Of a stretch of 64,000 nucleotides of DNA, positions 17,540-50,151 are shown in pieces. Made by a program: the position numbers and the translations under genes. Where the stretch lies: positions 434,001 through 498,000 of the forward strand of contig VLTN01000018.1 of assembly GCA_008330645.1 (NCBI GenBank), read 5' to 3'. The notes beneath the pieces were generated by a model that searched no databases, was not told the origin of the DNA, and saw only the letters and a list, made by a program, of their open reading frames with translations. The DNA is from Cafeteria roenbergensis (Eukaryota; Sar; Bigyra; Bicosoecida; Cafeteriaceae). The stretch's first letter is position 1, and each line of letters begins with the position of its first letter.

Positions 17540-20500
17540 ATGAGCGCGTTTCTAAAGCCCACCGTCGGCAGCGCGAGCTGGGGCCTGGCTTCGGCAGAGG
17601 CCGCAGTCGGCGAGGGCGCGGACGGCGGCGAGCCCTCCGCCACGCTCGCCGTGTTCAACCCTGTCGCGCACTTGGAGCTCTCACGCCAAAGGCGCGTGCT
17701 GCCTGTGTTCGGGGCACGCGCACGGTTCCTGTATGCAGTGGAGACCCACGGCGTTGTGATCGTCACTGCAGAAACCGGCAGCGGAAAGAGCACGCAGCTG
17801 CCGCAGTACCTTGCCGAGGCTGGATGGGCGCAGCATGGGCGGGCCGTGTGTTGCACGCAGCCCAGGCGAATCGCTGCAACGATGCTTGCCGCGCGCGTGG
17901 CGGACGAGCGCGGATGCGCTCTTGGGACGGAGGTTGGCTTCGCCGTCCGGTTCGAGGAGCAGTTCCGTCGCGGCGAGACGAAGATCAAGTTCGTCACCGA
18001 CGGCCTGCTGCTCCGAGAGGCCATGTCGGACCCCTTGTTGAGCGCCTACTCTGTGGTGATGGTCGACGAGGCGCACGAGCGAAGCCTCCAGACGGACGTC
18101 CTGCTCGGCCTCCTCAGGCGGGTGCGCGCCGCCCGCCCCGCGCTGCGGGTCGTTGTTGCGTCCGCAACCATTGACGCGGACCGCTTCGCGCGGTTCTTCG
18201 CGGCCAGCCCTGTTCCCCCGCCGCCCCCGGTTGTCCTTGGGGCCCGGGCGCCTTCGAGGTGGGGTGTCGCCCCAGCCCGCCCGGAGCAGCGGCCGGTGCC
18301 GGTGCCGCCGCCACAGCACCTGCCCCAGCCGGTGCGAGCGGAGCCAGCACAGTTGCAGCAACCGGCCGCTGTGCCGCCTCTAGCAGCAGCGGGAGCGGCT
18401 GCAAGCGAACCGGCTGGAGAGCCAGCCGCCCCCCAGCCACCGCGAACGGCGCCGCCGCAGACTTGGCGGCAGCGGCTGGCGGCGCGAGCGTCGGCATCCT
18501 CTGCCAGACAGGGCCCTGCCGACGCGCCCCTGCCTCCCTCCCCCGTCGCTGCGGCTGCTGCGGAAGGGGGCGCGGCCGGGCCGGCATCAGATCGCGCTGG
18601 GCCCAGCAGCAGCAGCAGCTCAAGCAGCAGCTCAAGCAGCAGCTCAAGCAGCAGCTCAAGCAGCAGCTCAAGCAGCAGCTCAGGCGACGGTATCCAGGCT
18701 CGCGGGACCGAGAAAGGACTCTCGTCAGCATCGACCTCGCGCGCAGACTCTGCCGCTGGTGGGTTCATTGGTGCTGCGCCGCCCCGCAGGCCATTTGCTA
18801 GCGCGTCGTGCGTGCTGTCCATCAGCGGGAGGTCGCACCCCGTCGACATCCAGCATCTCCTGACCCCGCAGGCGGACTACGTGGCGGCTGCCGCTGATGC
18901 TGCTCTCCTTGCGCACCGACGCGAGCCCCCCGGCGACGTCTTGGTGTTCCTTCCGGGGGCCGAGGAGGTGGAGGAGGTTTGCCGGCTCATCAGGCGAGGA
19001 GCCCCTCCGCCAGAGGACGGAGGGCCCGCGCTGCCCAGCTCTCGCCGGGGGTCCGCTGGGACTGCGGCGTTTGTGTCCCGGGCCGCCACCGCTGCTGCTG
19101 CCACTGCCACTGCGGCTGGCAGGGCGCGCGTTTCGGGGTCCTCGGGCGCGGCCCAGGCGCCGAACGATGACGACTGGCCGTGCGGGCGGCAACTGGACGT
19201 GTGCCCGTTGCACGCACGACTGCCGTGGCGCGACCAGCTGCGCGCGCTGCAGCCGGGAAGGCTCGCCCGGGGCAGCCGGCGAGTCCGCAAGGTCATCGTT
19301 GCGACAAGCGTGGCTGAGACGTCCGTGACGCTTCCTGGCGTCACCGTTGTCGTTGACTCGGGCTTCACCCGGGGGCCTGCGTACGACGCCGCCTCGGGAC
19401 TGACCGGGCTGGTCACTCGACCCGTGTCGCTGGCGCAGGCCCAGCAGCGGGCCGGCCGCGCGGGCCGCGTCCGCGCGGGCAAGTGCCTTCGGCTCTACCC
19501 GGAGTCTGCGATGCGCGATCTTGCGCCGTCGGCCGCCCCGGACATCCACTGCGCTCCGCTTGCGCCGCTGGCCTTGCAGTTGCTGGGCCTGGGAGTGGAG
19601 TCTCTGGCACGATTTCGGTACTTTGAACCGCCGCCAGCCACGAACATGCTGCGCGCCGTGGAGGACCTGGCTGCTGTGGGGGCGCTGCGCAGCGGCGCGG
19701 AGGAGGCAGCGGGCGCGCTTGGCGCGGGGGGGGAGGCCGGCGGAGGAGTCAGGCTGTCGTGGCGGGGCAGGTGGCTCGCACAACTCCCTGTGTCCCCAGC
19801 GCTGGGGGCAATGCTGCTCGCGAGCCTCGACCCGGCACTTCACTGCGCAGAGGAGTGCCTGAGCTTGGCCGCCGTGCTGTCTGCAGGCGACCCAGTGTTA
19901 CCGCCCGCCGAGGCCTCTCGGCAGCTGGACGACGCGGCTGCCAAGTCAAAGAGACGAGGCCAGGGCGGACGGGCGGGCAGTGGCGATGACAGCGAAGGCG
20001 ACGACGGCGAGGCGGGGCTGATGTCCTTTCACCGGTTTCTGGCCGCAGAGGGCGACCACTTGACGCTGGTCAACATGTACTCGGCCTGGGACGCGAACGG
20101 AAGGAGAGACGACTGGTGCCGCGGCTTCGGGCTTCGTCCCCACGTGATGAGGAGGGCAGGGGACGTGCGGGCCCTGCTGCACAGGTCGCTTCGACGGCTG
20201 CTGGACCAAGCCGCGACCAGCCGAGCTGACGCCGCCGGGCGCAACCCAGCCACAGCCGCAGCCTCCAAGGCGCATGCCGCGGACGAGCCCCCGGCCTCGC
20301 TTTGCATTGGCAGCTGCGGCGGCGACGGCAGCCTCGTCCTGCAAGCAGCGGTGCGAGGCTCGCCAACGAACCTGGCTTCGTTGGGGCGGGACGGCGCGTA
20401 CGTGACCGTCAGGGGCGGTAGAGCTGCCAAGCTGCGCGCGCACTGCGTGTTGTCCCAGCTGACGGGCGACGCGAGCGTGCCGCCGTGGGTGCTCTACGAC

Positions 20501-29299: not shown

Positions 29300-29583
29300 G
29301 AGAGCCTAGCTGGGGACGCTGCTGCACAAGTGCGGCTCGCTCGCGGACACCAGGCGCCGAGGCAGCGCGCTGGCAGCGGCGGAGGCGGCAGGCGATCGAA
29401 GCAGAGCTCTCGGTCGCGGTGCCAATCGCCGTCGGAGCTTTCGCGGGACTGGCACCCGCGGCCTTGCGCTGTTGACCCGAGTCTCCCGAAGCAGGCTGGC
29501 GGGCATGGCACATGTGGCCGTGCACCCGAGGTTCGCGGAAGCCCCCCTGATGTTCCTGCACTCGCTGCCCTACGTGAGGCAGG

Positions 29584-31815
29584 ATGCGCGAGGGCGCGCT
29601 GACATTTTCCGCTCATTCACCGCTCGGCTCTCGCACCGCACAGCCAGCCTCCCTCTCCCCCCCCTCCACCGCACGCTGCCCTGTGGCTGTTCGCAGTCTC
29701 CCTCGTGTGACATTTGCGGAAACTCTGCGTGTGAGCCTTGCCCCGGCTGGCTTGCCGGAGCCGCCGACCGGGATCAGCGCAAACGCCAGGCAGCGCAAAT
29801 CCTTTTCATTTGGCACCTCTCTGCTCCTCGCAGCTGGGACCCCCTTCTGGCACGACATCACCCAGCGAGATGCTGGGTCTAGCGTTGACGTGTGCACCCG
29901 GTGCTTCCCTGCGCCTCCGGGCGACAGCAGCGCGGCGTCTACCGAGGGAGTCACCGTGGCAAGCGCCACGAGTCTGCTGCTCGACAGCAAAGCCTCCTCG
30001 GCACAAGAGGCGGGCAGCCTTGGCCACCTGGTCCGAGAGCTTCTGCAGGGCGTCAAGGCCGATGAGGCCGCGAGCACTGCGCCTCGGCGCAAGACTGCGA
30101 TTCCGAAGCCCAAGGCCAAGAGCCCGGAAGTCGGCGCGGCACTGTGGGCAGCACCGCCTGCGCGTTTCCGAAACCCGCTCATTGGAACCGACACTGTGAT
30201 CGCTTCCTCCGACGCGCTGAAGCGAGCAAGCCTGGCCATGGGGCCCGACGGCACCTCAGATGGCGCAAGCCGCGTGCTGGCCGCGCTTGGCCTGCTTATG
30301 CCGGAAGGTGAGGCAGCAGCGCTCCTGGAGGCCAGCGACCAGCAGCAAAGCAAGCAGCGTGCGACCATTTCTGGAATTGGCCCGTTCGCAAGCACCGGCT
30401 CAAGCGAGGACGGCATGCCGCACTTCCCCATGCCGGACGGAATGTCCCGGCAAGGGTCCGACCTGGTCACCATCGCTGCGTCGGGCGGCTCCGTGTTTTC
30501 ACTCGCGCCCCGCACCTCGTCGCCTCTGCCTGATCTGGACACTGAGGCCGATTCTGCGGGACCGGAGCTCGATGAGAAGGCTGGTCCTGTGGAGGCGGAG
30601 CTGAGCCTCGACCCCGAACCCATCCTTGCCGCCTGCCCCACCAGCCCGGCAGCAGCAGCCGCTGGCGCAGCCGGCCAACATGTCTGCGACCAAGACGGCG
30701 ATGCTGCTCCCGACCTCGGACAAGGCGCGGACGAGGTGCCTGAGACGGCTTCCCCCGTCGGCGCAACGGCCTGGTGGCATGTCGACGCGCCTGCCTGGAG
30801 CGACGGCTCCACTCCTTCCGCTGCCATGGCTCCTGCCGGTGCCGCTGCTGCCGCTGCTGCTTCTGCTGCGGAGGGCGCTGAAGGCAGGCTGGAAGCGCAG
30901 TTCGCGCGCGTCCTTGCCACGGCGCTGTGTGAGCCTGCTGCAAGCTGTCGACTGCTCTTCCGGCCGACGCTGGCTCTCCGGGCGCTGGTGAGGAAGGCTG
31001 CGGCGCTGTCGCAGCGAGTGGCCGCCGTCGCCCTCGCCTCTCCGGCAGAGGCTTGCGAAAGCCTGACAGATGTCGTGTACCCAGCGCTGCTCAGCGCGTT
31101 CGAGGCCGATGATGAGCTGCGCGCGTCTGGCGCGGAAGGCGATGCCATGACTGAGGTTGCGGCGATGCGCGAGTTCGCTCAAGCGCTCGGCTCCGACCCC
31201 GACGAGGCTGCCAAACTGCTCCAAGCTGCTCTGGCAACTTCTGCGGCGTCTGGCAGGAGCGGCGCAGGAAGTGCTCCCTCCAGCCGAAGGCAGGCGCTTC
31301 GGGTTGCGGAGGCGTTGCTGTCTCCGGCTCCGCTTGACAACACTGGCACCGACGACGGCGACCTCCCTGCTGGCTCACAAAAGGAGCTCAAGGCAGCTTT
31401 TGAAGCCGCGGGGGCTTGCTCTGGCAGCCGAAACGGTGCCGTTGCTCACTTCTGCGCTGGCCTCGCCAACACGCTTGCGCTTCGCCTAGCGATTCTTGGC
31501 GCCGTGGCGAGGTTCGACGAGATGGACCCCGCGCTCGAGGCCAAGGCTCTCGATGGCGCACAAACGGTTGCAGCCGCATGGGCCGAGTCGCGCCCCAGCA
31601 TGGAGGCAGAGCTCGAGGGGCTGCCCAGCGAAGTGCGGGGCCGAATCGAAAGGCTTGATGCTGACCTCAAGGCAGCTGCTGCAAAGTTCGGCGCAACCTC
31701 CAAAGCCAACACGCTTGCATGGAGCACAGGGACGACGATTCCTTCCAAGATCCTTCTTGGCACCTGGTACCCTGAAGCAGCTTCGGATGCGGCTTCGGGG
31801 GTGCCATCAATGTAG
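29584..31815 (+). CDS. Unrecognised Ala/Ser/Glu-rich protein
   Basis: A 743-codon open frame. The first 80 residues look compositional. A strong acceptor-like site (CTCTGCTCCTCGCAG, ending about 29831) suggests the real coding part begins there, at about GTPFWHDITQRD, after a 5' exon I could not place. A candidate exon starting at 29505 does not match in phase. From residue 130 it is low complexity with short helical islands (GSLGHLVRELLQGVK; LLFRPTLALRALVRKAA; ALRVAEALLSPAPLD; LPSEVRGRIERLDADLKAAA). It has no signal peptide, membrane span or motif I know. The sustained frame and the ordered helical C-terminal third favour a real gene. Confidence 0.55.
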   Translation: MREGALTFSAHSPLGSRTAQPASLSPPSTARCPVAVRSLPRVTFAETLRVSLAPAGLPEPPTGISANARQRKSFSFGTSLLLAAGTPFWHDITQRDAGSSVDVCTRCFPAPPGDSSAASTEGVTVASATSLLLDSKASSAQEAGSLGHLVRELLQGVKADEAASTAPRRKTAIPKPKAKSPEVGAALWAAPPARFRNPLIGTDTVIASSDALKRASLAMGPDGTSDGASRVLAALGLLMPEGEAAALLEASDQQQSKQRATISGIGPFASTGSSEDGMPHFPMPDGMSRQGSDLVTIAASGGSVFSLAPRTSSPLPDLDTEADSAGPELDEKAGPVEAELSLDPEPILAACPTSPAAAAAGAAGQHVCDQDGDAAPDLGQGADEVPETASPVGATAWWHVDAPAWSDGSTPSAAMAPAGAAAAAAASAAEGAEGRLEAQFARVLATALCEPAASCRLLFRPTLALRALVRKAAALSQRVAAVALASPAEACESLTDVVYPALLSAFEADDELRASGAEGDAMTEVAAMREFAQALGSDPDEAAKLLQAALATSAASGRSGAGSAPSSRRQALRVAEALLSPAPLDNTGTDDGDLPAGSQKELKAAFEAAGACSGSRNGAVAHFCAGLANTLALRLAILGAVARFDEMDPALEAKALDGAQTVAAAWAESRPSMEAELEGLPSEVRGRIERLDADLKAAAAKFGATSKANTLAWSTGTTIPSKILLGTWYPEAASDAASGVPSM

Positions 31816-32115: not shown

Positions 32116-35100
32116 ATGCACCCATCAGCGGTGCTGGCACTGGCTGCCGCGGGTCTCTGGGCCGCCTGCCCGCCGAGCGCTGCAGCAGCAACCAGCGCGC
32201 AGCGCACCCAGCCCCCCACGGTCCGGGAGCTGTGCGTGGGGGGGCTGTCCTCCGCCATGGCCCCCGGCATCACGCTTGCGGACGACGCGGCGACGATGGG
32301 TGAGCCCATCAACCGCGGGCTGGCTGCCGGCGCGCTGAGCGCGCGCCTCGAAGGCGGGCAGTCGCTCAGCTTGGCTAGTTGCCAGGGGGCGGAGGCCCGA
32401 TGTCCACGCCATGCGCGCTTTGCTCCCGCCCCGCCGCAGTGGACATCGCGCGTCTGTGCTCGCTGCCGTGGGCGAATGCGAGCCGAGGCGGCGCTTGCGA
32501 GGAGGACTTCCGCATTCTGACCGAGCGATTCTCGGACCGCTTCGCGCCGGCAGCATGGCCGCAGCTTGTGGCGCCCGGGAGCGCGCTGGCTGCGCAGGCG
32601 CCCACCGCGCATGCGAGCGGGCGGCGGGGCATGCCGGGTCTGCCCATGTCGGTGAGGCCCGACGCGGGGGCCGCGGCGAGCCCGTCGCTGCTGAGGCTTG
32701 TGCTGGAGTCGCTGCTGCTGCGGGGACGTGGCGTGGGCTCGGGCTCGGCCCAGTGGCGCTGGCCGGGCGGCTGCGGGGGCATGTGCGGGGGTGGCCCTGT
32801 TGCGGCTGGCTGGCTTGGATGCGACACGCCCGTGCCGCTGCCCGCTCAATTCCGCTCTGCGCGCGCAGCAATCTCTTGTGACTTCGATGCGATGGTCTGA
32901 CGCCCCGCGTCCGGGGACGGTGCGGCGGAGCGGCGGGGCGCAGTCGTCGCCTGGCCGGTGCGAGTCGTCGGGGAATCACAGCCGCGGGCGAGCGCTGCTG
33001 TTGGAGGGGGAGCGAGTGCTGATCGCGGAGGGGTGGTTCGTGCCTTCGTCGCCGACACCGCCTTGCTGCGGTGGACTATCAAACACATTCACCCAGCTGA
33101 CGTCCATTCCTAACGCAAAGCAGGGACTGGAGTGTTCGTATGTCGCAAGGAGAAGCCACGGGGCGCTTCACAGCGGTGCGTTTCTTTCGAACGACTATGC
33201 TGCGCAGTCGGCAGCAACGCTGTTCGACGCTTACTTTCACAACCGGACAGGGGCGACGACTCCTACCAGGCAAGGCGCCACTGACCCCCGCCTCGGCCAC
33301 AGAACCTTCCTGGGGAGGCCCCACCAGATGCTGATCGTCTTCGCGGCCGGCCTCGACCAGTGGGGCGCCCTCCGCATCCCAGGACTGCCTCCCCCAGCGC
33401 CCGTCGACCAGGGCCTCTCTGCCAGCCTGCTGCTGGGCCACTCCACGTGGAACGCCACAAGCATGCTGCCTGCGGCGAGGGCGATGTCGGCGTCCGCGCT
33501 CTTCTGGGACGGGGACGGGACGGGCAACGGGTGCCGGATCACGGGCGATGCTGCGACGGGGTCCATTCGGCCGCCATGGCAAGCGTTTCGCGAGGTCGAC
33601 ATGTCGTACGCCGAGTCGGTCTCGATGTGCTTCGGAGGGCACGCCTCGGAATGCAGCATCCGTGGAGGCGCGTGCGGTGCCGCTGCCGCTCCGAAGCTGC
33701 CTCCGGTGCCCCGGTCGGATGCGGAGGCGTCATGCCTGCCCTCCGAGGTCATTGGGTCCGAAATGCAGGAGCAACCCCCGCAAAAGCCGGATCCATGGTG
33801 GCAGTGGGGTTCGCTGTCCTCCGTGGCCTGGTTCAAGCCTTGCGCCCCCGAGGCATGCGGGGGCAGGCCCTGCTCGGCGGAGGAGTGCAGGTCGAACACG
33901 GCCGACGTGGTCCAGCGACGGGCCGTGCAGCCCGCCCGCGTGCCCTCGCCCGCCCTGCTGGGCGTGCTGCGGCTTGCCGACGGGGGCGCGTTCGATTGGT
34001 ACTCGTGCCAGCCGACGGCGGCGTCATCCTTTCTGGGAGGGCTGCCCTCGTGCAGCGCCGTGTGCCGCGAGTCGAAGGGGGGCGGCGGCGCCGCGTGGCA
34101 GCGTCTGCAGATGGGCGTGGTCCGGCGCTCGGCGGGGAGCCCGCCCTCGCTGGCGAGCCGGGCGTGGCTGGGGGCGTGGTCGGGGCAGTGGTCCGCGGAC
34201 GGCTCGGAGCTGGGCTGCGAGGCGGGCTGGCCGATGCTGACGGCAGCTGCGAGTGAGGGGAGGCTGAGGGTGGCGTCGTCGGACGGGGTGCTTGGAGTGG
34301 CGGGGCACCTGGGCCAGCACGACGGGGGCGGGTGGGTCGCTGCGGCCCTGCTGAGCCCGCTGCTCTCCGGCGCGGAGGTGCGGGTGCAGCTTGACGTGCC
34401 GCTCAACGCGCTCGTGGGCGTGAGTCGTCAGCAGCTTCTGGCGGGCGTGGTGGGCGAGGCGCTCGTGGCTGCGGGCGGGCGGTCGAACGGGTGCGTGCGC
34501 GCGGTGTGCCGCGAGTGTCCGGGAGCGGAGAATCGGTCGGTGTGGGGCTGGGCGGGGCCTGTGCGGCCCGAGGGCGTGGGCGGGACATCGCTAGCCGTGC
34601 GGCTGATCGTCGGCGTGACCTTCATGCGGGCCGGGGACGCCGAGTGCGGGACGGCCACAGCTCCGTCATCGCTGGGCGCGTGGCTGGTGGACGCGAGGGC
34701 CTTGGGGCGGGCGCACCCCGTGGCCTTCACGGGCGAGGGGTCCAACTTGTCGTGGGCGAGCGATCACGCGGAGGCTCGGCGGCTGGGCGGGTGGCTCGAG
34801 CAGGTCGGGCCGTCGCTTCCCGAGCTGTCGCCGGCGGTGCTGGCGCTGTCGCTTGCGGCGTCCGTGTCGGGCTCGTCGCCGGACCGGCTGCTTGGCCGGT
34901 GGCTGGTGTGGGCGGCGCCGCAGTCTCAGCCGCCGGAGCCGCGCGTGACGGCCGTGGTGGCTGGCCTTCCGGCGGCAGGGCTCTCCCCGTGGTCTCCCCA
35001 GCTGTGCTCGGGCGGGCTGGGTGTGGACTGGGCCCAGGGCACGTGCTGGGGCAGCCGGGTGACCATGTCGCTGCTGGGTGTGGGGGTGTGCGTCGTGCTG

Positions 35101-36783
35101 GCCGGATGCTTCGCGCTGGTGCTGGCGGTGATGCCGGCTCCTGAGGTCGCGGGTCGGTGCGCGTGCGTGCGCAGCTGCTGCTGGTGCTGCGAGTGCGCGC
35201 GGTGCAGCTCGGCGGATGCTGGTCGCTTCGGCGGCGACGTTGGTCCGCTGGCGCGTCCGCTCGGCCGCGAGGCGTGGCGGCTGCGAGTGTCTGCGGCTCT
35301 CACGCTCGCTCCGTCCATGTGTCGGGGCGTTGAGCTGTGTCTGCTGCTGCTTCTGGCAGTATCGATGCGCCCGCTGTGGGGCGAGCCGGACGGGCTGGTG
35401 GTGGGCTGCATCGGCGTGCTGGTGTTGTGGGGCGTGTGGTCGGCCGGCCGGCTGTGCTTGCTGGCCCGGCGACGACGGGGCGGCTCTCGCAGCGACGGCG
35501 GGGACGACGTTGCGCGGGCCAGCGCCGGCTTCGGACCATCGCTGGCGCGTGCGGCGCCTGAGGGGTGGTCCCTCTTTCCGATCGAGGGTGCGCGGGCGGC
35601 TGGGATGGGAGCGGGGCCTGGTCGCGGGCAGCACGCCGAGGCGATGCTGTCTCCGGGCTGTCTCCGGTCCGGGGGAGCGGCGCTGTGCGCGTTTGGCGAC
35701 GCTTGGCAGGCGTTCGGCGCTGTGGACGTGCTGGCGGACGCGGATCGGGCGACCCGGCGCTTCCACCAGCTGCGCTCGGTCCCCGGGCTCGATCTGGGGA
35801 CACGACTCATTTCGCCAGTCAGATCGCCGGACAGCGACGTCGGCCTGCGACCAGCCTTGCAAGCGCTCACGACCGAGGCAGCAAGGCCGGAACCAGCAGT
35901 GCCTGTGTCACTCGCCGTCTGGGGCGGCAATCGCTTCAAGCCTGTCGCCTCGGCTGCTGCTGGGAGCACGTCGCCCGTCGCGGGGGGAGCCACTGTCGCC
36001 GGGTCGTCGTCTGCGGAGGGAAGTTCTGGGGGCGCGATGCAAGGGACGCGGCGGAACCAGGTGTTCGACGAGCCAGCACCGTCGATGCGTCATGCACACT
36101 CGCCTTCCGACCAAGGAGGTCCAAGGTCTGATGGCTGCTTCGTCGAGGCAAGCTGCGACCCCTCTCATGCGCCATCGGACAGCTCGGGCCCGCGGCCTGC
36201 ATTCGGCCACCCAGCCGATGCGCGCGATCAATTGGCACATCAGCAGCTTGACGACAATGGAGCAGATGTTCGAGTCTCTCTGCCGCCCCTCCGAACCTCA
36301 GACCGTCAGGCCGACGGCGCGGATGAGCCCACCAGCGTGACCCCAAGCGTTGGAAGCCCGTGCCTCCAGCGAGGTGCAGACGTCGGGTGGGCGGCTGATG
36401 CCCCGCGACTGCAGCGGCAGGCAGCGCACTTGGATCCTCCCGGTTCGGCGCCTGCGCTCCCTGCTGCCAGCGCGTGCCGGCGCTGCTCGTGGCAGCGGGC
36501 TTTGGCGGTGCTGCCCGACGTGCTGGTGGTCGCGCTCTTGCTGCGGAGCGCTGTCTTGGTGTTGTCGCCTCGGCTGTTCGCCGCGCACATCGCGAGTGCG
36601 CTGGCTCGGGCCGCGATCGCCTGGGGAGAGAATGCGACATCTGCCTCCGCCCTCTCCTCGGAGGTGTTCGAGTCCGAGCAGCTGTCCATGTGGGCCATGC
36701 CGCTCGGGCAGGGGCCTGTGCTTGTATCATGTTTGTTGTGTGTGGCGTCTGCAGTGGGCTCTCTCTTGCGCGTCGCCCTGTGA
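32116..36783 (+). CDS. Tandem-array protein copy 1: putative multi-pass surface protein with hypervariable ectodomain segment
   Basis: Proposed exons are 32116-32299, 32386-32894 and 32944-36783 (about 1,510 residues). Intron 1 is a clean 86-nt GTGAGC...CAG. The second junction is uncertain (see finding). Layout: signal peptide (VLALAAAGLWAACPPSAAAA), a Cys-rich predicted ectodomain to about residue 935, TM1 about 937-962 (LLGVGVCVVLAGCFALVLAV), a juxtamembrane Cys cluster (CCWCCECARCS), TM2 about 1017-1041, TM3 about 1047-1071, a long Ser/Pro-rich loop, TM4 about 1420-1441 and TM5 about 1488-1507. N-glycosylation sequons (NHS, NRT, NAT) support an extracellular N-terminal half. Residues about 274-340 are unlike those of the other copies. 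Copy 1 also differs at 33588-33605 and 33745-33790. I recognise no known domain; a receptor or self/non-self surface molecule is speculation. Confidence 0.75.
33072..33267 (+). other. Hypervariable cassette, copy 1
   Basis: 196 nt encoding a segment such as GLSNTFTQLTSIP...LFDAYFHNRTGA, flanked by near-identical sequence in all copies. It is exactly as long as the copy 2 cassette but shares little beyond spaced positions (TQ.TS, NDY..QSA, FDA.F). It contains an NRT sequon. Confidence 0.9.
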
Positions 36784-36923
36784 CAGCCCGCGACTATTGC
36801 TGCCTCGTCACCCAGTGCACCGCGACGGAAACCCAGATGCCTCTCCCGTGGCCAGCAGCTCTGCTTGCTCATCGGCCTCGAGTCCGCTCGTCCGCCACCG
36901 CCGGCGCCACGGCTTGCTCGGTC

Positions 36924-39900
36924 ATGCGCGCAAGGCCGGGCAGGGGGTGCCTTGCCGCGGTGGGGCGCGCCCCGGCGGTGCTGGCACTGGCTGCCGCGGG
37001 TCTCTGGGCCGCCTGCCCGCCGAGCGCTGCAGCAGCAACCAGCGCGCAGCGCACCCAGCCCCCCACGGTCCGGGAGCTGTGCGTGGGGGGGCTGTCCTCC
37101 GCCATGGCCCCCGGCATCACGCTTGCGGACGACGCGGCGACGATGGGTGAGCCCATCAACCGCGGGCTGGCTGCCGGCGCGCTGAGCGCGCGCCTCGAAG
37201 GCGGGCAGTCGCTCAGCTTGGCTAGTTGCCAGGGGGCGGAGGCCCGATGTCCACGCCATGCGCGCTTTGCTCCCGCCCCGCCGCAGTGGACATCGCGCGT
37301 CTGTGCTCGCTGCCGTGGGCGAATGCGAGCCGAGGCGGCGCTTGCGAGGAGGACTTCCGCATTCTGACCGAGCGATTCTCGGACCGCTTCACGCCAGCAG
37401 CATGGCCGCAGCTTGTGGCGCCCGGGAGCGCGCTGGCTGCGCAGGCGCCCACCGCGCATGCGAGCGGGCGGCGGGGCATGCCGGGTCTGCCCATGTCGGT
37501 GAGGCCCGACGCGGGGGCCACGGCGAGCCCGTCGCTGCTGAGGCTTGTGCTGGAGTCGCTGCTGCTGCGGGGGCGTGGCGTGGGCTCGGGCTCGGCCCAG
37601 TGGCGCTGGCCGGGCGGCTGCGGGGGCGTGTGCGGGGGTGGCCCTGTTGCGGCTGGCTGGCTTGGATGCGACACGCCCGTGCCGCTGCCCGCTCAATTCC
37701 GCTCTGCGCGCGCAGCAATCTCTTGTGACTTCGATGCGATGGTCTGACGCCCCGCGTCCGGGGACGGTGCGGCGGAGCGGCAGGGCGCAGTCGCCGCCTG
37801 GCCGGTGCGAGTCGTCCGGGAATCACAGCCGCGGGCGAGCGCTGCTGTTGGAGGGGGAGCGAGTGCTGATCGCGGAGGGGTGGTTCGTGCCTTCGTCGCC
37901 GACACCGCCTTGCTGCGGAGCGGACTCAAGTGCGTATACTCAAATGACATCGTCCTTGATGACTTTGGTGCCTCCAAATTGTTCGACCAGCGCCTGGAAA
38001 CGAAGAAGCTTCACAAACCAAGGCCTGTTCATGGCGAACGACTACGTGTCTCACTCGGCTGTTTGTGTTTTCGACGCTGAATTCATTGATACCAAGGGCG
38101 CCTCCGTCGCCACGAGGCAAGGCGCCACTGTCCCCCGCCTCGGCCACAGAACCTTCCTGGGGAGGCCCCACCAGATGCTGATCGTCTTCGCGGCCGGCCT
38201 CGACCAGTGGGGCGCCCTCCGCATCCCAGGACTGCCTCCCCCAGCGCCCGTCGACCAGGGCCTCTCTGCCAGCCTGCTGCTGGGCCATTCCACGTGGAAC
38301 GCCACAAGCATGCTGCCTGCGGCGAGGGCGATGTCGGCGTCCGCGCTCTTCTGGGACGGGGACGGGACGGGCAACGGGTGCCGGATCACGGGCGATGCTG
38401 CGACGGGGTCCATTCGGCCGCCATGGCAAGCGTTTGACCGCGTGGACGGGCTGTACGCCGAGTCGGTCTCGATGTGCTTCGGAGGGCACGCCTCGGAATG
38501 CAGCATCCGTGGAGGCGCGTGCGGTGCCGCTGCCGCTCCGAAGCTGCCTCCGGTGCCCCGGTCGGATGCGGAGGCGTCATGCCTGCCCTCCGCAGTGATC
38601 GGGTCGCGAGCAAGTTCACAGCCACCTGGCATCCCCAAGCCATGGTGGCAGTGGGGTTCGCTGTCCTCCGTGGCCTGGTTCAAGCCTTGCGCCCCCGAGG
38701 CATGCGGGGGCAGGCCCTGCTCGGCGGAGGAGTGCAGGTCGAACACGGCCGACGTGGTCCAGCGACGGGCCGTGCAGCCCGCCCGCGTGCCCTCGCCCGC
38801 CCTGCTGGGCGTGCTGCGGCTTGCCGACGGGGGCGCGTTCGATTGGTACTCGTGCCAGCCGACGGCGGCGTCATCCTTTCTGGGAGGGCTGCCCTCGTGC
38901 AGCGCCGTGTGCCGCGAGTCGGAGGGGGGCGGCGGCGCCGCGTGGCAGCGTCTGCAGATGGGCGTGGTCCGGCGCTCGGCGGGGAGCCCGCCCTCGCTGG
39001 CGAGCCGGGCGTGGCTGGGGGCGTGGTCGGGGCAGTGGTCCGCGGACGGCTTGGAGCTGGGCTGCGAGGCGGGCTGGCCGATGCTGACGGCAGCTGCGAG
39101 TGAGGGGAGGCTGAGGGTGGCGTCGTCGGACGGGGTGCTTGGAGTGGCGGGGCACCTGGGCCAGCACGACGGGGGCGGGTGGGTCGCTGCGGCCCTGCTG
39201 AGCCCGCTGCTCTCCGGCGCGGAGGTGCGGGTGCAGCTTGACGTGCCGCTCAACGCGCTCGTGGGCGTGAGTCGTCAGCAGCTTCTGGCGGGCGTGGTGG
39301 GCGAGGCGCTCGTGGCTGCGGGCGGGCGGTCGAACGGGTGCGTGCGCGCGGTGTGCCGCGAGTGTCCGGGAGCGGAGAATCGGTCGGTGTGGGGCTGGGC
39401 GGGGCCTGTGCGGCCCGAGGGCGTGGGCGGGACATCGCTAGCCGTGCGGCTGATCGTCGGCGTGACCTTCATGCGGGCCGGGGACGCCGAGTGCGGGACG
39501 GCCACAGCTCCGTCATCGCTGGGCGCGTGGCTGGTGGACGCGAGGGCCTTGGGGCGGGCGCACCCCGTGGCCTTCACGGGCGAGGGGTCCAACTTGTCGT
39601 GGGCGAGCGATCACGCGGAGGCTCGGCGGCTGGGCGGGTGGCTCGAGCAGGTCGGGCCGTCGCTTCCCGAGCTGTCGCCGGCGGTGCTGGCGCTGTCGCT
39701 TGCGGCGTCCGTGTCGGGCTCGTCGCCGGACCGGCTGCTTGGCCGGTGGCTGGTGTGGGCGGCGCCGCAGTCTCAGCCGCCGGAGCCGCGCGTGACGGCC
39801 GTGGTGGCTGGCCTTCCGGCGGCAGGGCTCTCCCCGTGGTCTCCCCAGCTGTGCTCGGGCGGGCTGGGTGTGGACTGGGCCCAGGGCACGTGCTGGGGCA

Positions 39901-41582
39901 GCCGGGTGACCATGTCGCTGCTGGGTGTGGGGGTGTGCGTCGTGCTGGCCGGATGCTTCGCGCTGGTGCTGGCGGTGATGCCGGCCCCTGAGGTCGCGGG
40001 TCGGTGCGCGTGCGTGCGCAGCTGCTGCTGGTGCTGCGAGTGCGCGCGGTGCAGCTCGGCCGATGCTGGTCGCTTCGGCGGCGACGTTGGTCCGCTGGCG
40101 CGTCCGCTCGGCCGCGAGGCGTGGCGGCTGCGAGTGTCTGCGGCTCTCACGCTCGCTCCGTCCATGTGTCGGGGCGTTGAGCTGTGTCTGCTGCTGCTTC
40201 TGGCAGCATCGATGCGCCCGCTGTGGGGCGAGCCGGACGGGCTGGTGGTGGGCTGCATCGGCGTGCTGGTGTTGTGGGGCGTGTGGTCGGCCGGCCGGCT
40301 GTGCTTGCTGGCCCGGCGACGACGGGGCGGCTCTCGCAGCGACGGCGGGGACGACGTTGCGCGGGCCAGCGCCGGCTTCGGACCATCGCTGGCGCGTGCG
40401 GCGCCTGAGGGGTGGTCCCTCTTTCCGATCGAGGGTGCGCGGGCGGCTGGGATGGGAGCGGGGCCTGGTCGCGGGCAGCACGCCGAGGCGATGCTGTCTC
40501 CGGGCTGTCTCCGGTCCGGGGGAGCGGCGCTGTGCGCGTTTGGCGACGCTTGGCAGGCGTTCGGCGCTGTGGACGTGCTGGCGGACGCGGATCGGGCGAC
40601 CCGGCGCTTCCACCAGCTGCGCTCGGTCCCCGGGCTCGATCTGGGGACACGACTCATTTCGCCAGTCAGATCGCCGGACAGCGACGTCGGCCTGCGACCA
40701 GCCTTGCAAGCGCTCACGACCGAGGCAGCAAGGCCGGAACCAGCAGTGCCTGTGTCACTCGCCGTCTGGGGCGGCAATCGCTTCAAGCCTGTCGCCTCGG
40801 CTGCTGCTGGGAGTGCGTCGCCCGTCGCGGGGGGAGCCACTGTCGCCGGGTCGTCGTCTGCGGAGGGAAGTTCTGGGGGCGCGATGCAAGGGACGCGGCG
40901 GAACCAGGTGTTCGACGAGCCAGCACCGTCGATGCGTCATGCACACTCGCCTTCCGACCAAGGAGGTCCAAGGTCTGATGGCTGCTTCGTCGAGGCAAGC
41001 TGCGACCCCTCTCATGCGCCATCGGACAGCTCGGGCCCGCGGCCTGCATTCGGCCACCCAGCCGATGCGAGCGTGCCTTTGCCGCCCCTCCGAACCTCAG
41101 ACCGTCAGGCCGACGGCGCGGATGAGCCCACGAGCGTGACCCCAAGCGTTGGAAGCCCGTGCCTCCAGCGAGGTGCAGACGTCGGGTGGGCGGCTGATGC
41201 CCCGCGACTGCAGCAGCAGGCAGCGCACTTGGATCCTCCCGGTTCGGCGCCTGCGCTCCCTGCTGCCAGCGCGTGCCGGCGCTGCTCGTGGCAGCGGGCT
41301 TTGGCGGTGCTGCCCGACGTGCTGGTGGTCGCGCTCTTGCTGCGGAGCGCTGTCTTGGTGTTGTCGCCTCGGCTGTTCGCCGCGCACATCGCGAGTGCGC
41401 TGGCTCGGGCCGCGATCGCCTGGGGAGAGAATGCGACATCTGCCTCCGCCCTCTCCTCGGAGGTGTTCGAGTCCGAGCAGCTGTCCATGTGGGCCATGCC
41501 GCTCGGGCAGGGGCCTGTGCTTGTATCATGTTTGTTGTGTGTGGCGTCTGCAGTGGGCTCTCTCTTGCGCGTCGCCCTGTGA
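36924..41582 (+). CDS. Tandem-array protein copy 2: putative multi-pass surface protein
   Basis: Proposed exons are 36924-37146, 37233-37741 and 37791-41582 (about 1,507 residues), with the same intron sites and five membrane spans as copy 1. The N-terminus differs: MRARPGRGCLAAVGRAPA precedes the shared signal-peptide core, because its 5' end derives from the repeat-unit end rather than from the unique flank. Only about 140 bases separate it from the copy 1 stop, so transcription may read through or start from a very compact promoter. The cytoplasmic loop lacks 16 codons present in copy 1. Apart from the cassette and short blocks, it is nearly identical to copy 1 through the last membrane span and the spacer. 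No domain is recognised. Confidence 0.75.
37919..38114 (+). other. Hypervariable cassette, copy 2
   Basis: 196 nt encoding a segment beginning ADSSAYTQMTSSLMTLVPP and running to FDAEFIDTKGASVATRQ. Its local AT content is visibly higher than that of the flanks, which are otherwise virtually the same in copies 1 and 3. Confidence 0.9.
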
Positions 41583-41722
41583 CAGCCCGCGACTATTGCT
41601 GCCTCGTCACCCAGTGCACCGCGACGGAAACCCAGATGCCTCTCCCGTGGCCAGCAGCTCTGCTTGCTCATCGGCCTCGAGTCCGCTCGTCCGCCACCGC
41701 CGGCGCCACGGCTTGCTCGGTC

Positions 41723-44700
41723 ATGCGCGCAAGGCCGGGCAGGGGGTGCCTTGCCGCGGTGGGGCGCGCCCCGGCGGTGCTGGCACTGGCTGCCGCGGGT
41801 CTCTGGGCCGCCTGCCCGCCGAGCGCTGCAGCAGCAACCAGCGCGCAGCGCACCCAGCCCCCCACGGTCCGGGAGCTGTGCGTGGGGGGGCTGTCCTCCG
41901 CCATGGCCCCCGGCATCACGCTTGCGGACGACGCGGCGACGATGGGTGAGCCCATCAACCGCGGGCTGGCTGCCGGCGCGCTGAGCGCGCGCCTCGAAGG
42001 CGGGCAGTCGCTCAGCTTGGCTAGTTGCCAGGGGGCGGAGGCCCGATGTCCACGCCATGCGCGCTTTGCTCCCGCCCCGCCGCAGTGGACATCGCGCGTC
42101 TGTGCTCGCTGCCGTGGGCGAATGCGAGCCGAGGCGGCGCTTGCGAGGAGGACTTCCGCATTCTGACCGAGCGATTCTCGGACCGCTTCGCGCCGGCAGC
42201 ATGGCCGCAGCTTGTGGCGCCCGGGAGCGCGCTGGCTGCGCAGGCGCCCACCGCGCATGCGAGCGGGCGGCGGGGCATGCCGGGTCTGCCCATGTCGGTG
42301 AGGCCCGACGCGGGGGCCGCGGCGAGCCCGTCGCTGCTGAGGCTTGTGCTGGAGTCGCTGCTGCTGCGGGGGCGTGGCGTGGGCTCGGGCTCGGCCCAGT
42401 GGCGCTGGCCGGGCGGCTGCGGGGGCGTGTGCGGGGGTGGCCCTGTTGCGGCTGGCTGGCTTGGATGCGACACGCCCGTGCCGCTGCCCGCTCAATTCCG
42501 CTCTGCGCGCGCAGCAATCTCTTGTGACTTCGATGCGATGGTCTGACGCCCCGCGTCCGGGGACGGTGCGGCGGAGCGGCGGGGCGCAGTCGTCGCCTGG
42601 CCGGTGCGAGTCGTCGGGGAATTACAGCCGCGGGCGAGCGCTGCTGTTGGAGGGGGAGCGAGTGCTGATCGCGGAGGGGTGGTTCGTGCCTTCGTCGCCG
42701 ACACCGCCTTGCTGCGGAGCGGACTCGAGTGCCTACACGCAGCTCATCTCGCAGTTGCAACTCAGCGATCGCCAGTGCATGGGATCATCGGCCCAACAAA
42801 GCCTGAGTGTTGCTCTGGGCGTGTTCTTGGAGAGCGCATTCACTGCACAGTCAGCTGTTCTGTCCGTTAACTGCACGTGGAGAGCCCGTGAAAAGTCCAA
42901 CGACTGGCAGGCGGCTGAGGGTCAGACGACAATGGTGAGGGAAGGAGCGACACGAAACTCTGACCTGCACAGACCCGGCCTGACAAGAACCTTCCTGGGG
43001 AGGCCCCACCAGATGCTGATCGTCTTCGCGGCCGGCCTCGACCAGTGGGGCGCCCTCCGCATCCCAGGACTGCCTCCCCCAGCGCCCGTCGACCAGGGCC
43101 TCTCTGCCAGCCTGCTGCTGGGCCATTCCACGTGGAACGCCACAAGCATGCTGCCTGCGGCGAGGGCGATGTCGGCGTCCGCGCTCTTCTGGGACGGGGA
43201 CGGGACGGGCAACGGGTGCCGGATCACGGGCGATGCTGCGACGGGGTCCATTCGGCCGCCATGGCAAGCGTTTGACCGCGTGGACGGGCTGTACGCCGAG
43301 TCGGTCTCGATGTGCTTCGGAGGGCACGCCTCGGAATGCAGCATCCGTGGAGGCGCGTGCGGTGCCGCTGCCGCTCCGAAGCTGCCTCCGGTGCCCCGGT
43401 CGGATGCGGAGGCGTCATGCCTGCCCTCCGCAGTGATCGGGTCGCGAGCAAGTTCACAGCCACCTGGCATCCCCAAGCCATGGTGGCAGTGGGGTTCGCT
43501 GTCCTCCGTGGCCTGGTTCAAGCCTTGCGCCCCCGAGGCATGCGGGGGCAGGCCCTGCTCGGCGGAGGAGTGCAGGTCGAACACGGCCGACGTGGTCCAG
43601 CGACGGGCCGTGCAGCCCGCCCGCGTGCCCTCGCCCGCCCTGCTGGGCGTGCTGCGGCTTGCCGACGGGGGGCGCGTTCGATTGGTACTCGTGCCAGCCG
43701 ACGGCGGCGTCATCCTTTCTGGGAGGGCTGCCCTCGTGCAGCGCCGTGTGCCGCGAGTCGGAGGGGGGCGGCGGCGCCGCGTGGCAGCGTCTGCAGATGG
43801 GCGTGGTCCGGCGCTCGGCGGGGAGCCCGCCCTCGCTGGCGAGCCGGGCGTGGCTGGGGGCGTGGTCGGGGCAGTGGTCCGCGGACGGCTCGGAGCTGGG
43901 CTGCGAGGCGGGCTGGCCGATGCTGACGGCAGCTGCGAGTGAGGGGAGGCTGAGGGTGGCGTCGTCGGACGGGGTGCTTGGAGTGGCGGGGCACCTGGGC
44001 CAGCACGACGGGGGCGGGTGGGTCGCTGCGGCCCTGCTGAGCCCGCTGCTCTCCGGCGCGGAGGTGCGGGTGCAGCTTGACGTGCCGCTCAACGCGCTCG
44101 TGGGCGTGAGTCGTCAGCAGCTTCTGGCGGGCGTGGTGGGCGAGGCGCTCGTGGCTGCGGGCGGGCGGTCGAACGGGTGCGTGCGTGCGGTGTGCCGCGA
44201 GTGTCCGGGAGCGGAGAATCGGTCGGTGTGGGGCTGGGCGGGGCCTGTGCGGCCCGAGGGCGTGGGCGGGACATCGCCAGCCGTGCGGCTGGTCGTCGGC
44301 GTGACCTTCATGCGGGCCGGGGACGCCGAGTGCGGGACGGCCACGGCTCCGTCATCGCTGGGCGCGTGGCTGGTGGACGCGAGGGCCTCGGGGCGGGCGC
44401 ACCCCGTGGCCTTCACGGGCGAGGGGTCCAACTTGTCGTGGGCGAGCGATCACGCGGAGGCTCGGCGGCTGGGCGGGTGGCTCGAGCAGGTCGGGCCGTC
44501 GCTTCCCGAGCTGTCGCCGGCGGTGCTGGCGCTGTCGCTTGCGGCGTCCGTGTCGGGCTCGTCGCCGGACCGGCTGCTTGGCCGGTGGCTGGTGTGGGCG
44601 GCGCCGCAGTCTCAGCCGCCGGAGCCGCGCGTGACGGCCGTGGTGGCTGGCCTTCCGGCGGCAGGGCTCTCCCCGTGGTCTCCCCAGCTGTGCTCGGGCG

Positions 44701-46460
44701 GGCTGGGTGTGGACTGGGCCCAGGGCACGTGCTGGGGCAGCCGGGTGACCATGTCGCTGCTGGGTGTGGGGGTGTGCGTCGTGCTGGCCGGATGCTTCGC
44801 GCTGGTGCTGGCGGTGATGCCGGCTCCTGAGGTCGCGGGTCGGTGCGCGTGCGTGCGCAGCTGCTGCTGGTGCTGCGAGTGCGCGCGGTGCAGCTCGGCC
44901 GATGCTGGTCGCTTCGGCGGCGACGTTGGTCCGCTGGCGCGTCCGCTCGGCCGCGAGGCGTGGCGGCTGCGAGTGTCTGCGGCTCTCACGCTCGCTCCGT
45001 CCATGTGTCGGGGCGTTGAGCTGTGTCTGCTGCTGCTTCTGGCAGCATCGATGCGCCCGCTGTGGGGCGAGCCGGACGGGCTGGTGGTGGGCTGCATCGG
45101 CGTGCTGGTGTTGTGGGGCGTGTGGTCGGCCGGCCGGCTGTGCTTGCTGGCCCGGCGACGACGGGGCGGCTCTCGCAGCGACGGCGGGGACGACGTTGCG
45201 CGGGCCAGCGCCGGCTTCGGACCATCGCTGGCGCGTGCGGCGCCTGAGGGGTGGTCCCTCTTTCCGATCGAGGGTGCGCGGGCGGCTGGGATGGGAGCGG
45301 GGCCTGGTCGCGGGCAGCACGCCGAGCCGATGCTGTCTCCGGGCTGTCTCCGGTCCGGGGGAGCGGCGCTGTGCGCGTTTGGCGACGCTTGGCAGGCGTT
45401 CGGCGCTGTGGACGTGCTGGCGGACGCGGATCGGGCGACCCGGCGCTTCCACCAGCTGCGCTCGGTGCCAACCTTGGCAGTTACTACACTGGCGCATGTG
45501 GAGCGTGCCGCCGCCGCCAACGCCTCGCTTGGCTTGGCAGAAGGTGCCCTTGAGAACGAGCAAGCAAGGGTTCAACTCAGACCTGTTGGCGAGTCGTCGC
45601 CCGTGTGCGCAAGAGCTACGACTTCAGAAGCCGCTGACGCGTTCTGGTCGGCTTCCCGAAGCCAGCAGCGTAGCGACGCCCCCGCTGGCGCAGGCGATGG
45701 TCGCATCAGTGAGCGTGGCTCCGAAGGTCAAGTCCGCGGAGGCGCGGACGTCGACGTCCCAGAGACCTTGCACTGGCAATTGGCTGCTGGGAATCCTCCT
45801 CTTCGCTCCTCGACAGCTGGTGTCTCGGCGGAGCCGCTCAGCTGCTCCGCTCCTGCCTCTCGAGGAGCGTCTGGCTCACACTCCCCCGTCCCCGCTGCAA
45901 CGGCGGAACCCGAGTATCCCCCCGTTCCGTTCTCCCAGCGCGGCGATTCGGATCGTGCCCGGCACGCCTGCGGCCCCGTGGCGCCCCTGTGCAGTGACAG
46001 CGTCGGAGAGCTGCTGCGCGGCTCGTCGGATTCGCTGGGCCACGACGCCCTTAGCGATAGGCAAGCGAGCCAAGCCGGCCGCAGTCAGCAATCGGAGACT
46101 CGGGCCCCTGTGTTTTCGTTGGCGGACCGCATCTGTGGTTTCGTGCCTCTATGTATTGTATTTCCGGACGTTGCTGTCCTTGCTTTGGCGCTCCGCTGTT
46201 TCGTTCTCGTGGCCTCTGTTGGCCTGTTCGAAGAAGAAATTGCACGTCCCTTGCTGCTTCAGTTGATTGGACCAAGTGCTGCTGGATCCGTGTCGCTCAT
46301 TCCTAGGACGCAGAGCAGTGTTGCTGCACAGGTTGGAGCGTGGGCTCGACCTCTTGGCAGCGCCCAGGTTTTGTGCGCATGTGCCCTGTGCGCTATGGCG
46401 TCTCTCGGATCGATTTCTCGCCTGGTTGCAGGTCGAGCTGCCCGCCAAGCCAGCTCCTAG
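41723..46460 (+). CDS. Tandem-array protein copy 3: divergent C-terminus, one-base G-run difference
   Basis: Proposed exons are 41723-41945, 42032-42540 and 42590-46460. The start and first kilobases match copy 2. A G run at about 43667-43672 has six Gs where copies 1 and 2 have five, which shifts the frame once; the downstream frame is otherwise fully open to 46460, so this is a sequencing slip or a very recent lesion. From 45467 the DNA is unrelated to copies 1 and 2, yet the protein end is recognisably homologous: FPDVAVLALALRCFVLVASV against LPDVLVVALLLRSAVLVLSP, and a shared W.(M/R)PLG then a final membrane span. Copy 3 therefore keeps an older paralogue's tail. The cassette is 13 codons longer than in copies 1 and 2. 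Confidence 0.7.
42718..42985 (+). other. Hypervariable cassette, copy 3
   Basis: 268 nt. The first 20 or so bases resemble copy 2; the remainder encodes an unrelated segment (LISQLQLSDRQCMGSSAQ ... NCTWRAREKSNDW) containing an NCT sequon and two Cys. Homology resumes abruptly at AGAACCTTCC. Confidence 0.9.
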
Positions 46461-49305: not shown

Positions 49306-50075
49306 GGGCCCAGCCACGAGTGTTCGCGCAAGGGCGCCCCGAATGGCAGAGCTCTGACCCGCGCCGTCGGACACAGGCGCGACGCCGGGCGCAGGGACCC
49401 CGAGTCCCCGTCCTCTGCAGCAAAGCTGGCACCACCGACTTTGCCTCGGCCCCACTCGCTTGCTCTCGCCCTGACTCCGTCATGGACAGGACAGTGCAGC
49501 CGCTTGCTCTCACAGCTGAGATCGGACCCGCATGCGACCGCCACCAGGAGTCTGGAGACGCCCGCTCCACTATCACAGGCCGTCAGGAAGACTCCGTCTT
49601 TTAGCCTTGCTATGTCGAGGCAACACTTGACGACGACCGCCACAACCATCAACGTTGTGGCCCCCTATGGGGCGCTTCCGAGGAAGGCTGGCGCCTGGCA
49701 AGCAATTCGCTGCATTGCCAGTAGAAAAGCGCTTCGCATAAGGCTGCGATCGTGCCTTGTGAACGCGCGGAGGTCCAAAAGCAGAACAGGACAAGGGCAG
49801 TTTGGCCAGAAACAGAGTGTATGAAGAAGCAGAACAAGAGTAGCATTACTTTAGGTTGCCTTGAGACAAGGGAGCTTGGTGTCAATGTGTCTGTTCTATG
49901 GTATCAACAAGTCAAGCGCAAGCATCGGGGTCCATGTTGCGCCTTGTGTTCGCGGCGCCGACTTGAACACGAAGCGCATTCGCACCAAGCCAGGAAACCA
50001 AGTGACTGCGAAATAGGAAAGCGCCATGGCAAATTTTAGAGTTCGTATTGCAAAGATTCTAAGTGTTCGTCATCT
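49306..50075. other. Intergenic region with a lower-GC stretch before the tRNA
   Basis: From about 49640 to 50075 base composition drops clearly below the rest of the window. No protein-coding frame, repeat or RNA other than the following tRNA is recognised. It could serve as the Pol III upstream region or be an old insertion. Confidence 0.45.
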
Positions 50076-50149
50076 GTCTGGCTGGCGCAATTGGATAGCG
50101 CGTCCGACTACGGATCGGGAGGTTGCAGGTTCGAGTCCTGCGTCAGATG
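50076..50149 (+). tRNA. tRNA-Arg (anticodon ACG)
   Basis: A full cloverleaf can be drawn. The acceptor stem GTCTGGC/GTCAGAT has G-U pairs at 1-72 and 6-67. The D stem is GCGC/GCGC with an AATTGGATA loop, and the anticodon stem is TCCGA/TCGGG with loop CTACGGA (ACG, reading CGU and by inosine CGC/CGA). The variable loop is AGGTT, and the T arm is GCAGG-TTCGAGT-CCTGC; the discriminator is G. No intron. Box A (TGGCGCAATTGG) and box B (GGTTCGAGTCC) are intact. CCA is not encoded, as usual in eukaryotes. Confidence 0.95.
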
Positions 50150-50151
50150 AC

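Follow-up and report, generated by a model that had tools for sequence, protein, structure and literature searches.

In mammals, the tandem surface-receptor paralogues TLR1 and TLR6 are partly homogenised by gene conversion and partly different: the membrane part and most of the signalling part are kept alike while the N-terminal part differs (PMC2077338). Gene conversion also spares part of the gene in ruminant CEACAM1 and CEACAM32, where it is described for the leader exon and the introns and not for the exons of the immunoglobulin-like (Ig-like) domains, with selection proposed as the hindrance (PMC7042247). The MTA proteins of Tetrahymena have 1,423-1,494 residues and five transmembrane (TM) helices, and their TM exons are 99.6% identical while the type-specific parts are 38-47% identical (PMC3608545, PMC10901506). 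Here we describe a tandem gene array of the protist Cafeteria roenbergensis that can be compared with these systems. The window, i.e. the whole stretch of DNA that was analysed, consists of 64,000 bases of contig VLTN01000018.1, and the array occupies its positions 32116-46460 on the + strand. It is formed by three direct repeats with a repeat unit of ~4.8 kb, which contain the genes U1, U2 and U3. With moderate confidence, we read them as multi-pass surface-receptor paralogues that would be under concerted evolution, with patches of binding specificity escaping it.

The three genes share the same plan, with a pair of GT-AG introns of only 38 and 49 bp ahead of a large third exon. U1 (type A, 32116-36783) is predicted to encode 1,526 residues with exons at 32116-32401, 32440-32894 and 32944-36783. 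Its frame is intact across both introns, and the guanine-plus-cytosine (GC) content at the third codon position (GC3) of the chosen frames is mostly 0.7-0.9. U2 (a B/A chimera, 36924-41582) is likewise open and has 1,523 predicted residues and predicted introns at 37249-37286 and 37742-37790. In U3 (type B, 41723-46460) the predicted introns are at 42048-42085 and 42541-42589, and the frame is broken near 43667, where an extra G in a G run shifts it; the other frame is then open to 46460, for more than 900 codons. This shift may come from a sequencing error or be a genuine, recent one.

When the window was compared with itself by BLAST, six blocks of 944-2,966 bp with 98.27-99.68% identity were found within the array. 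For the core of the genes, differences were counted over 3,360 ungapped aligned columns. This count starts behind the leader, at 32128, and stops at 35780; it omits three divergent patches (HV1, HV2 and HV3), and gap columns are set aside. This core contains 21 variable sites (8 synonymous, 12 nonsynonymous and 1 intronic) and one gap column. The pairwise differences, introns included, number 14 between U1 and U2, 13 between U1 and U3 and 15 between U2 and U3, or 0.39-0.45%. The first predicted intron (32402-32439 in U1, 38 bp) has the same sequence in all three genes and the second (32895-32943, 49 bp) has a single difference, in U2. The spacer and leader of U2 (36784-36974) are identical over all 191 positions to those ahead of U3 (41583-41773). 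The first-pass annotation had described three adjacent genes that are almost identical, including their introns and spacers, and these figures agree with it. As between TLR1 and TLR6, one region is thus nearly identical at silent sites (8 variable of ~910 synonymous core sites, and 0 of 191 in the spacer). Such near-identity of the backbone at silent sites and in introns is shown by these counts to need recent recombination.

Against this background, the difference jumps abruptly from ~0.4% in the core to 43-50% in HV1 and 58% at HV2 and HV3 together. HV1 lies at 33072-33300 in U1 (residues 291-366), at 37919-38147 in U2 and at 42718-42985 in U3, all on the + strand. Abrupt edges had been claimed for these cassettes. 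According to the map of variable columns, the left break is common to the three genes (33072, 37919 and 42718), but the right edge depends on the pair compared: it is near 33265 for U1 against U2, where only 2 of the 35 positions of 33266-33300 differ, and at 33300, 38147 and 42985 when compared with U3. Two further patches, HV2 and HV3, separate U1 from U2 and U3, which are identical to each other there. HV2 is at 33589-33605 in U1 (10 of 17 columns differ from 38436-38452 and 43274-43290), and HV3 is at 33746-33792 (27 of 47 columns differ from 38593-38639 and 43431-43477), giving 37 differing columns out of 64. The leader is divergent in the same manner, i.e. U1 against identical U2 and U3. 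Finally, the tail exists in two types. Tail type A of U1 (35781-36783) has its counterpart in U2 at 40628-41582, with 8 differences in 955 aligned bases by pairwise count (7 by a three-way count that skips every column with a gap and extends past the stop codon), and an in-frame stretch of 48 nt (36226-36273 of U1) is missing from U2. Tail type B of U3 (45466-46460, ~1 kb) is homologous to tail A with 103 identical residues out of 297 aligned; about half of its ungapped sites differ from U1 and its synonymous sites are saturated. HV2, HV3, the 48-nt indel and the U3 tail are divergent blocks beyond those of the first-pass annotation.

The HV1 cassettes had been regarded as unrelated stretches, and this could not be maintained. 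In the 223 ungapped columns of HV1 there are 96, 112 and 106 pairwise differences (in the order U1-U2, U1-U3 and U2-U3, as below), besides 52 gapped columns. The identical residues number 21 of 64, 22 of 75 and 27 of 75, with U1-U2 scored over the first 64 codons, without the last 12, which these two genes nearly share. The global alignment scores of the peptides exceed those of all 500 shuffles in each of the three pairs (z of 11.0, 5.8 and 8.7); a single cysteine and some short motifs are common to all three. We therefore rejected unrelated sequence and regard the cassettes as diverged homologues. As claimed earlier, they keep the frame, HV1 of U3 being 13 codons longer. N-glycosylation sequons are indeed present, one in each cassette, but the total of 3 is not notable against the 2.19 expected from shuffles (P=0.38), and sequons were dropped as a special mark of HV1.

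The proportions of synonymous (pS) and nonsynonymous (pN) differences were evaluated by Nei-Gojobori counts, with bootstrap intervals for pS-pN. In HV1, pS is 0.80, 0.74 and 0.68 and pN is 0.46, 0.56 and 0.48 for the three pairs; the intervals of pS-pN are 0.18 to 0.51, 0.02 to 0.34 and 0.04 to 0.34, with zero outside all three. The tails of U1 and U3 give similar values (pS 0.76, pN 0.52, interval 0.18 to 0.31), as do HV2 and HV3 together (pS 0.79, pN 0.49, interval -0.04 to 0.63). HV1, HV2 with HV3, and the tail are thus at the divergence of old paralogues (pS 0.68-0.80), which again resembles TLR1 and TLR6. These values show coding constraint in HV1 and in the tail. HV1 appears to be coding, old and constrained, with synonymous sites that are saturated or nearly so. 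An intron or an unrelated insert was rejected as its origin, given the kept frame, the homology at the protein level and pS higher than pN. The sequences also show that two gene types of old and strong divergence, A and B, are neighbours.

It had also been argued that identical flanks with divergent cores imply either exchange or strong diversifying selection, and a comparison of dN/dS inside and outside the cassette had been proposed. The part concerning recombination stands: directly beside a core with ~0.4% difference lie cassettes with saturated or nearly saturated synonymous sites, and point mutation would not give edges this sharp, so recombination is required. The part concerning selection found no signal, since each HV1 pair has a pN lower than its pS and the tail is equally diverged (dN of 0.72-1.05 in HV1 compared with 0.88 in the U1-U3 tail). 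Recent positive selection was rejected as the source of the difference, because the synonymous sites of HV1 are at or near saturation and the core has only 8 synonymous variable sites in ~910. Since the tails of U1 and U3, which are mostly a putative cytoplasmic loop, are equally diverged, HV1 is at the distance of old paralogues and is not specially hypervariable. The exceptional part is rather the recently homogenised flanks.

These results bring in a neutral form of concerted evolution, in which conversion and unequal crossover homogenise the array, heterology blocks recombination at the diverged segments, and the patches have no special role. Recombination junctions naturally give sharp edges at the borders of heterology. 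This account would also fit with HV1, HV2 and HV3, and the A and B tails having much the same old divergence with pN lower than pS, and with a tail that is mostly outside the putative recognition surface. On the other hand, islands of only 17 bp and 47 bp must then survive amid homogenised sequence, in stretches of 288 and 140 bp. The three patches ahead of the tail all fall within the N-terminal 530 of the ~950 ectodomain residues. Moreover, each gene has its own HV1, even though the leader, HV2 and HV3 of U2 are of the B kind. We consider this neutral account unlikely, while still deserving serious attention. The probabilities that we attach to the four readings in this paper are not strictly exclusive.

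The history of the array can be traced from how its blocks group. The leader unites U2 and U3, as do HV2 and HV3; the tail unites U1 and U2; and the left core unites U1 and U3, with 3 differences in 944 positions compared with 8 for U1-U2 and 7 for U2-U3. Such a pattern is a mosaic that no single tree would give, and in the assembled sequence the mosaic is real and clean. One unequal crossover could turn A-B into A-(B/A)-B, which would provide U2 with a B leader and an A tail, and earlier or later conversions would explain the shuffled core. HV1 (different in all three genes), HV2 and HV3 (A versus B) and the A and B tails keep the old divergence. Under concerted evolution with escaping patches, these would persist because they determine binding specificity: conversions erasing them would be selected against, and the remainder of the protein would be shared. 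U2 carries a B-type leader and B-type HV2 and HV3 together with an HV1 of its own, and so HV1 probably also varies among B alleles or was recombined in. If the crossover took place between homologous chromosomes, U2 and U3 would hold two alleles of the B-type HV1. HV1 of U2 is itself a mosaic: over the first 24 nt it is 83% identical to U3, and over its right end (38113-38147) it agrees with U1 at 33 of 35 positions. Because the start is U3-like and the end is U1-like, a recombination junction seems to lie inside this cassette or at its edges.

The same pattern would arise if two diploid haplotypes, each A-B, were joined by the assembler as A-(B/A)-B through a jump in the near-identical core, U2 and U3 then carrying two HV1 alleles. 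There is exactly one hybrid unit, the ~2.5 kb of near-identical core could mislead an assembler, and U3 has a homopolymer indel. The four Cafeteria assemblies come from an apparently diploid organism and are reported to have redundant contigs from high heterozygosity (PMC6972860). Nevertheless, the junction of A, spacer and B must exist anyway, and units of ~4.8 kb are within ordinary long-read reach. We judge such an assembly product improbable. Its allelic interpretation of HV1 can coexist with the explanation we prefer.

Trypanosome VSG and Borrelia vlsE provide another model, as segmental conversion there acts on a variable core within constant flanks. Applied to this locus, the HV1 module would be actively swapped by segmental gene conversion from genomic donors, producing variants as in antigenic variation, or for mating or allorecognition. 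The likeness to VSG and vlsE is the variable core in constant flanks; the common left edge, the exact core flanks, the kept frame, the separate HV1 of each gene and the mosaic edges of HV1 in U2 all suit an exchange, and so does a base composition of HV1 that is unlike its surroundings. Silent donor cassettes, an expression site and switching belong to the VSG and vlsE model. The 64-kb window contains no donor copy of HV1, the best tblastn match (E up to 10) besides the three HV1s having an E of 0.26. Each gene has a start and a stop of its own (U3 being frame-broken) instead of being a silent partial cassette, and the tails are equally diverged. Active exchange seems improbable to us. With three genes of one assembly, exchange cannot be distinguished from homogenisation around old sequence, and no rates can be derived.

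The composition was compared at fourfold degenerate sites. GC is found at 65 of 116 sites in the pooled HV1, at 155 of 228 and 127 of 219 in the tails of U1 and U3, respectively, and at 483 of 568 in the U1 core. The difference between HV1 and core gives a Fisher P of 5e-11, in which three homologous HV1 are pooled and the sites within a gene are not independent. For reference, 119 windows of 70 codons were taken from the inner parts of 10 hand-chosen open frames, 7 of which have Pfam support. None of these windows is as low as the pooled HV1 value of 0.56, and the three at or below 0.60 come from a single frame that has no Pfam match. Such a contrast would follow from GC-biased conversion of the homogenised parts, but this is a hint and not proof, because the ten other frames span 0.66-0.86, which includes the core value of 0.85.

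Concerted evolution with selectively retained patches remains our best reading, and several points weigh against it. Since pN is lower than pS, selection for the retained difference is inferred, not measured, and for HV2 and HV3 together the interval of pS-pN includes zero. The tail, mostly a putative cytoplasmic loop, is equally diverged, and incomplete homogenisation could explain part of the pattern. There is no shoulder of raised divergence beside HV1, the nearest core differences being 95 and 141 bp away, whereas a decay would be expected around a selected site. The common left edge of HV1 suits a discrete cassette more than independent conversions. Lastly, the pooled HV1 is lower in fourfold GC than all 119 other coding windows.

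When compared to TLR1 and TLR6, the parts left unconverted in the array are a tail and short internal islands of the ectodomain, and the core, introns included, differs by just 0.39-0.45%. In contrast to CEACAM, the escaped islands are inside a single exon. Searches of Pfam with E up to 10 gave no match for the exon-3 product of U1, the N-terminus of U1 or the downstream part of U3, although the HMMER filters discard most very weak matches; the array proteins thus show no Pfam leucine-rich repeat or TIR domain as in TLR1 and TLR6, and no Ig-like Pfam domain of the Alr or CEACAM type. Sequence searches of PDB found chance-level matches only (the one obtained with a profile of the four pieces has an E of 1.8), from which a much-diverged fold, Ig-like or other, could escape. 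Identity with a known domain was rejected on these results. Scans of viral and prokaryotic contigs for relatives gave 3, 35 and 95 pattern matches, none of which was confirmed by tblastn. The earlier statement that the protein could be assigned to no known family therefore holds for the Pfam, PDB, viral and prokaryotic searches. AlphaFold models were unusable both for part of the ectodomain, without exons 1 and 2 (mean predicted local distance difference test score, pLDDT, of 26.4 with 4 aligned rows), and for the membrane part (34.2 with 3 aligned rows). Searches of the literature by words, not by sequence, returned analogues only and nothing on this locus.

Membrane topology and sidedness were derived from hydropathy alone. 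U1 has a start resembling a signal peptide, then a putative ectodomain of ~950 residues and then five hydrophobic segments: residues 958-976 (TM1, 35074-35130), with a Cys-rich stretch after it, a pair at 1035-1082 (TM2 and TM3, 35305-35448), and, past a long loop, a pair at 1436-1524 (TM4 and TM5, 36508-36774) within the divergent tail. The description as a multi-pass surface protein is thus kept as a prediction from five helices and the signal-like start, with hydropathy as its sole basis. The location of the variable patches in the predicted extracellular part was likewise borne out for the main patches, on an ectodomain defined in the same way. A Cys-containing ectodomain, a multi-pass anchor, tandem duplication and small ectodomain islands kept different together make a surface receptor or an adhesion protein, with specificity differing between the paralogues, the most likely role.

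The array resembles Tetrahymena MTA and MTB as a tandem array of a protist, in the protein size, in the five C-terminal TM helices (in U1, by hydropathy alone) and in having shared and type-specific parts. MTA and MTB are described, in the papers above, as head-to-head pairs with incomplete germline copies, a growth-factor-receptor (GFR) domain and an N-terminal type-specific region. Here, no Pfam match to the Cys-rich GFR domain was obtained with E up to 10 in the three pieces scanned. In place of head-to-head pairs with truncated TM exons there are three direct repeats, each reaching its own C-terminal tail, and the internal patches are flanked by identity on both sides. Because the GFR domain and the head-to-head truncated copies were looked for and not found, we say that the array may work like the mating-type genes of Tetrahymena, and not that it belongs to them. 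The array might be a locus for self/non-self or partner recognition, in which a discrete HV1 module of 76 to 89 residues would be exchanged among genes and alleles on a constantly re-homogenised five-pass scaffold, and each strain would carry its own HV1 set; we put this forward as quite unlikely. If true, it would open a molecular approach to recognition in a lineage for which no sexual cycle is reported to be known (PMC6972860).

What is new is a protein family for which no known relatives were found, displaying a known evolutionary pattern, with a putative and testable recognition role. The array shows how recombination can hold the scaffold of a surface protein uniform even as short patches remain at the divergence of old paralogues. 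If strains prove to differ in HV1, the locus would be a handle on how this little-studied protist recognises prey, partner or virus. Even if the process was neutral, this is a clean case showing that a divergent core may sit in near-identical flanks without being hypervariable, and hypervariability can be tested through synonymous saturation in the divergent core and equal divergence of other unhomogenised segments.

The GC content of the window is 70.5%, and the Cafeteria assemblies are reported with 70-71% GC and 1.67-1.89 introns per gene (PMC6972860, PMC8547959), with which this GC content and the small number of short introns agree. The proteins encoded near the array include a chromodomain SNF2 helicase, a DEAH-type helicase, a GDA1/CD39 apyrase, an ABC1-type kinase, an ArfGAP, an OTU protease and a carboxylesterase. 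This set of neighbours, with the short introns that the array genes require, indicates that the window is eukaryotic DNA. Adjoining the array, 29578-31815 is an open frame of 745 codons without a Pfam match; its inner part has a fourfold GC of 0.66, the lowest of the ten frames compared. Tandem repeats exist within several open frames: a 6-bp unit in 12.7 copies (97% matches) at 7907-7982 in the SNF2 frame, a 12-bp unit in 6.0 copies (100% matches) at 18611-18682 in the DEAH-helicase frame, and a 21-bp unit in 9.9 copies (96% matches) at 54342-54548 within overlapping long open frames of both strands. A tRNA-Arg gene with anticodon ACG at 50075-50151 is the sole RNA gene found by two RNA-gene searches of the window, and a perfect array of a 5-bp repeat is located ~200 bp downstream of it.

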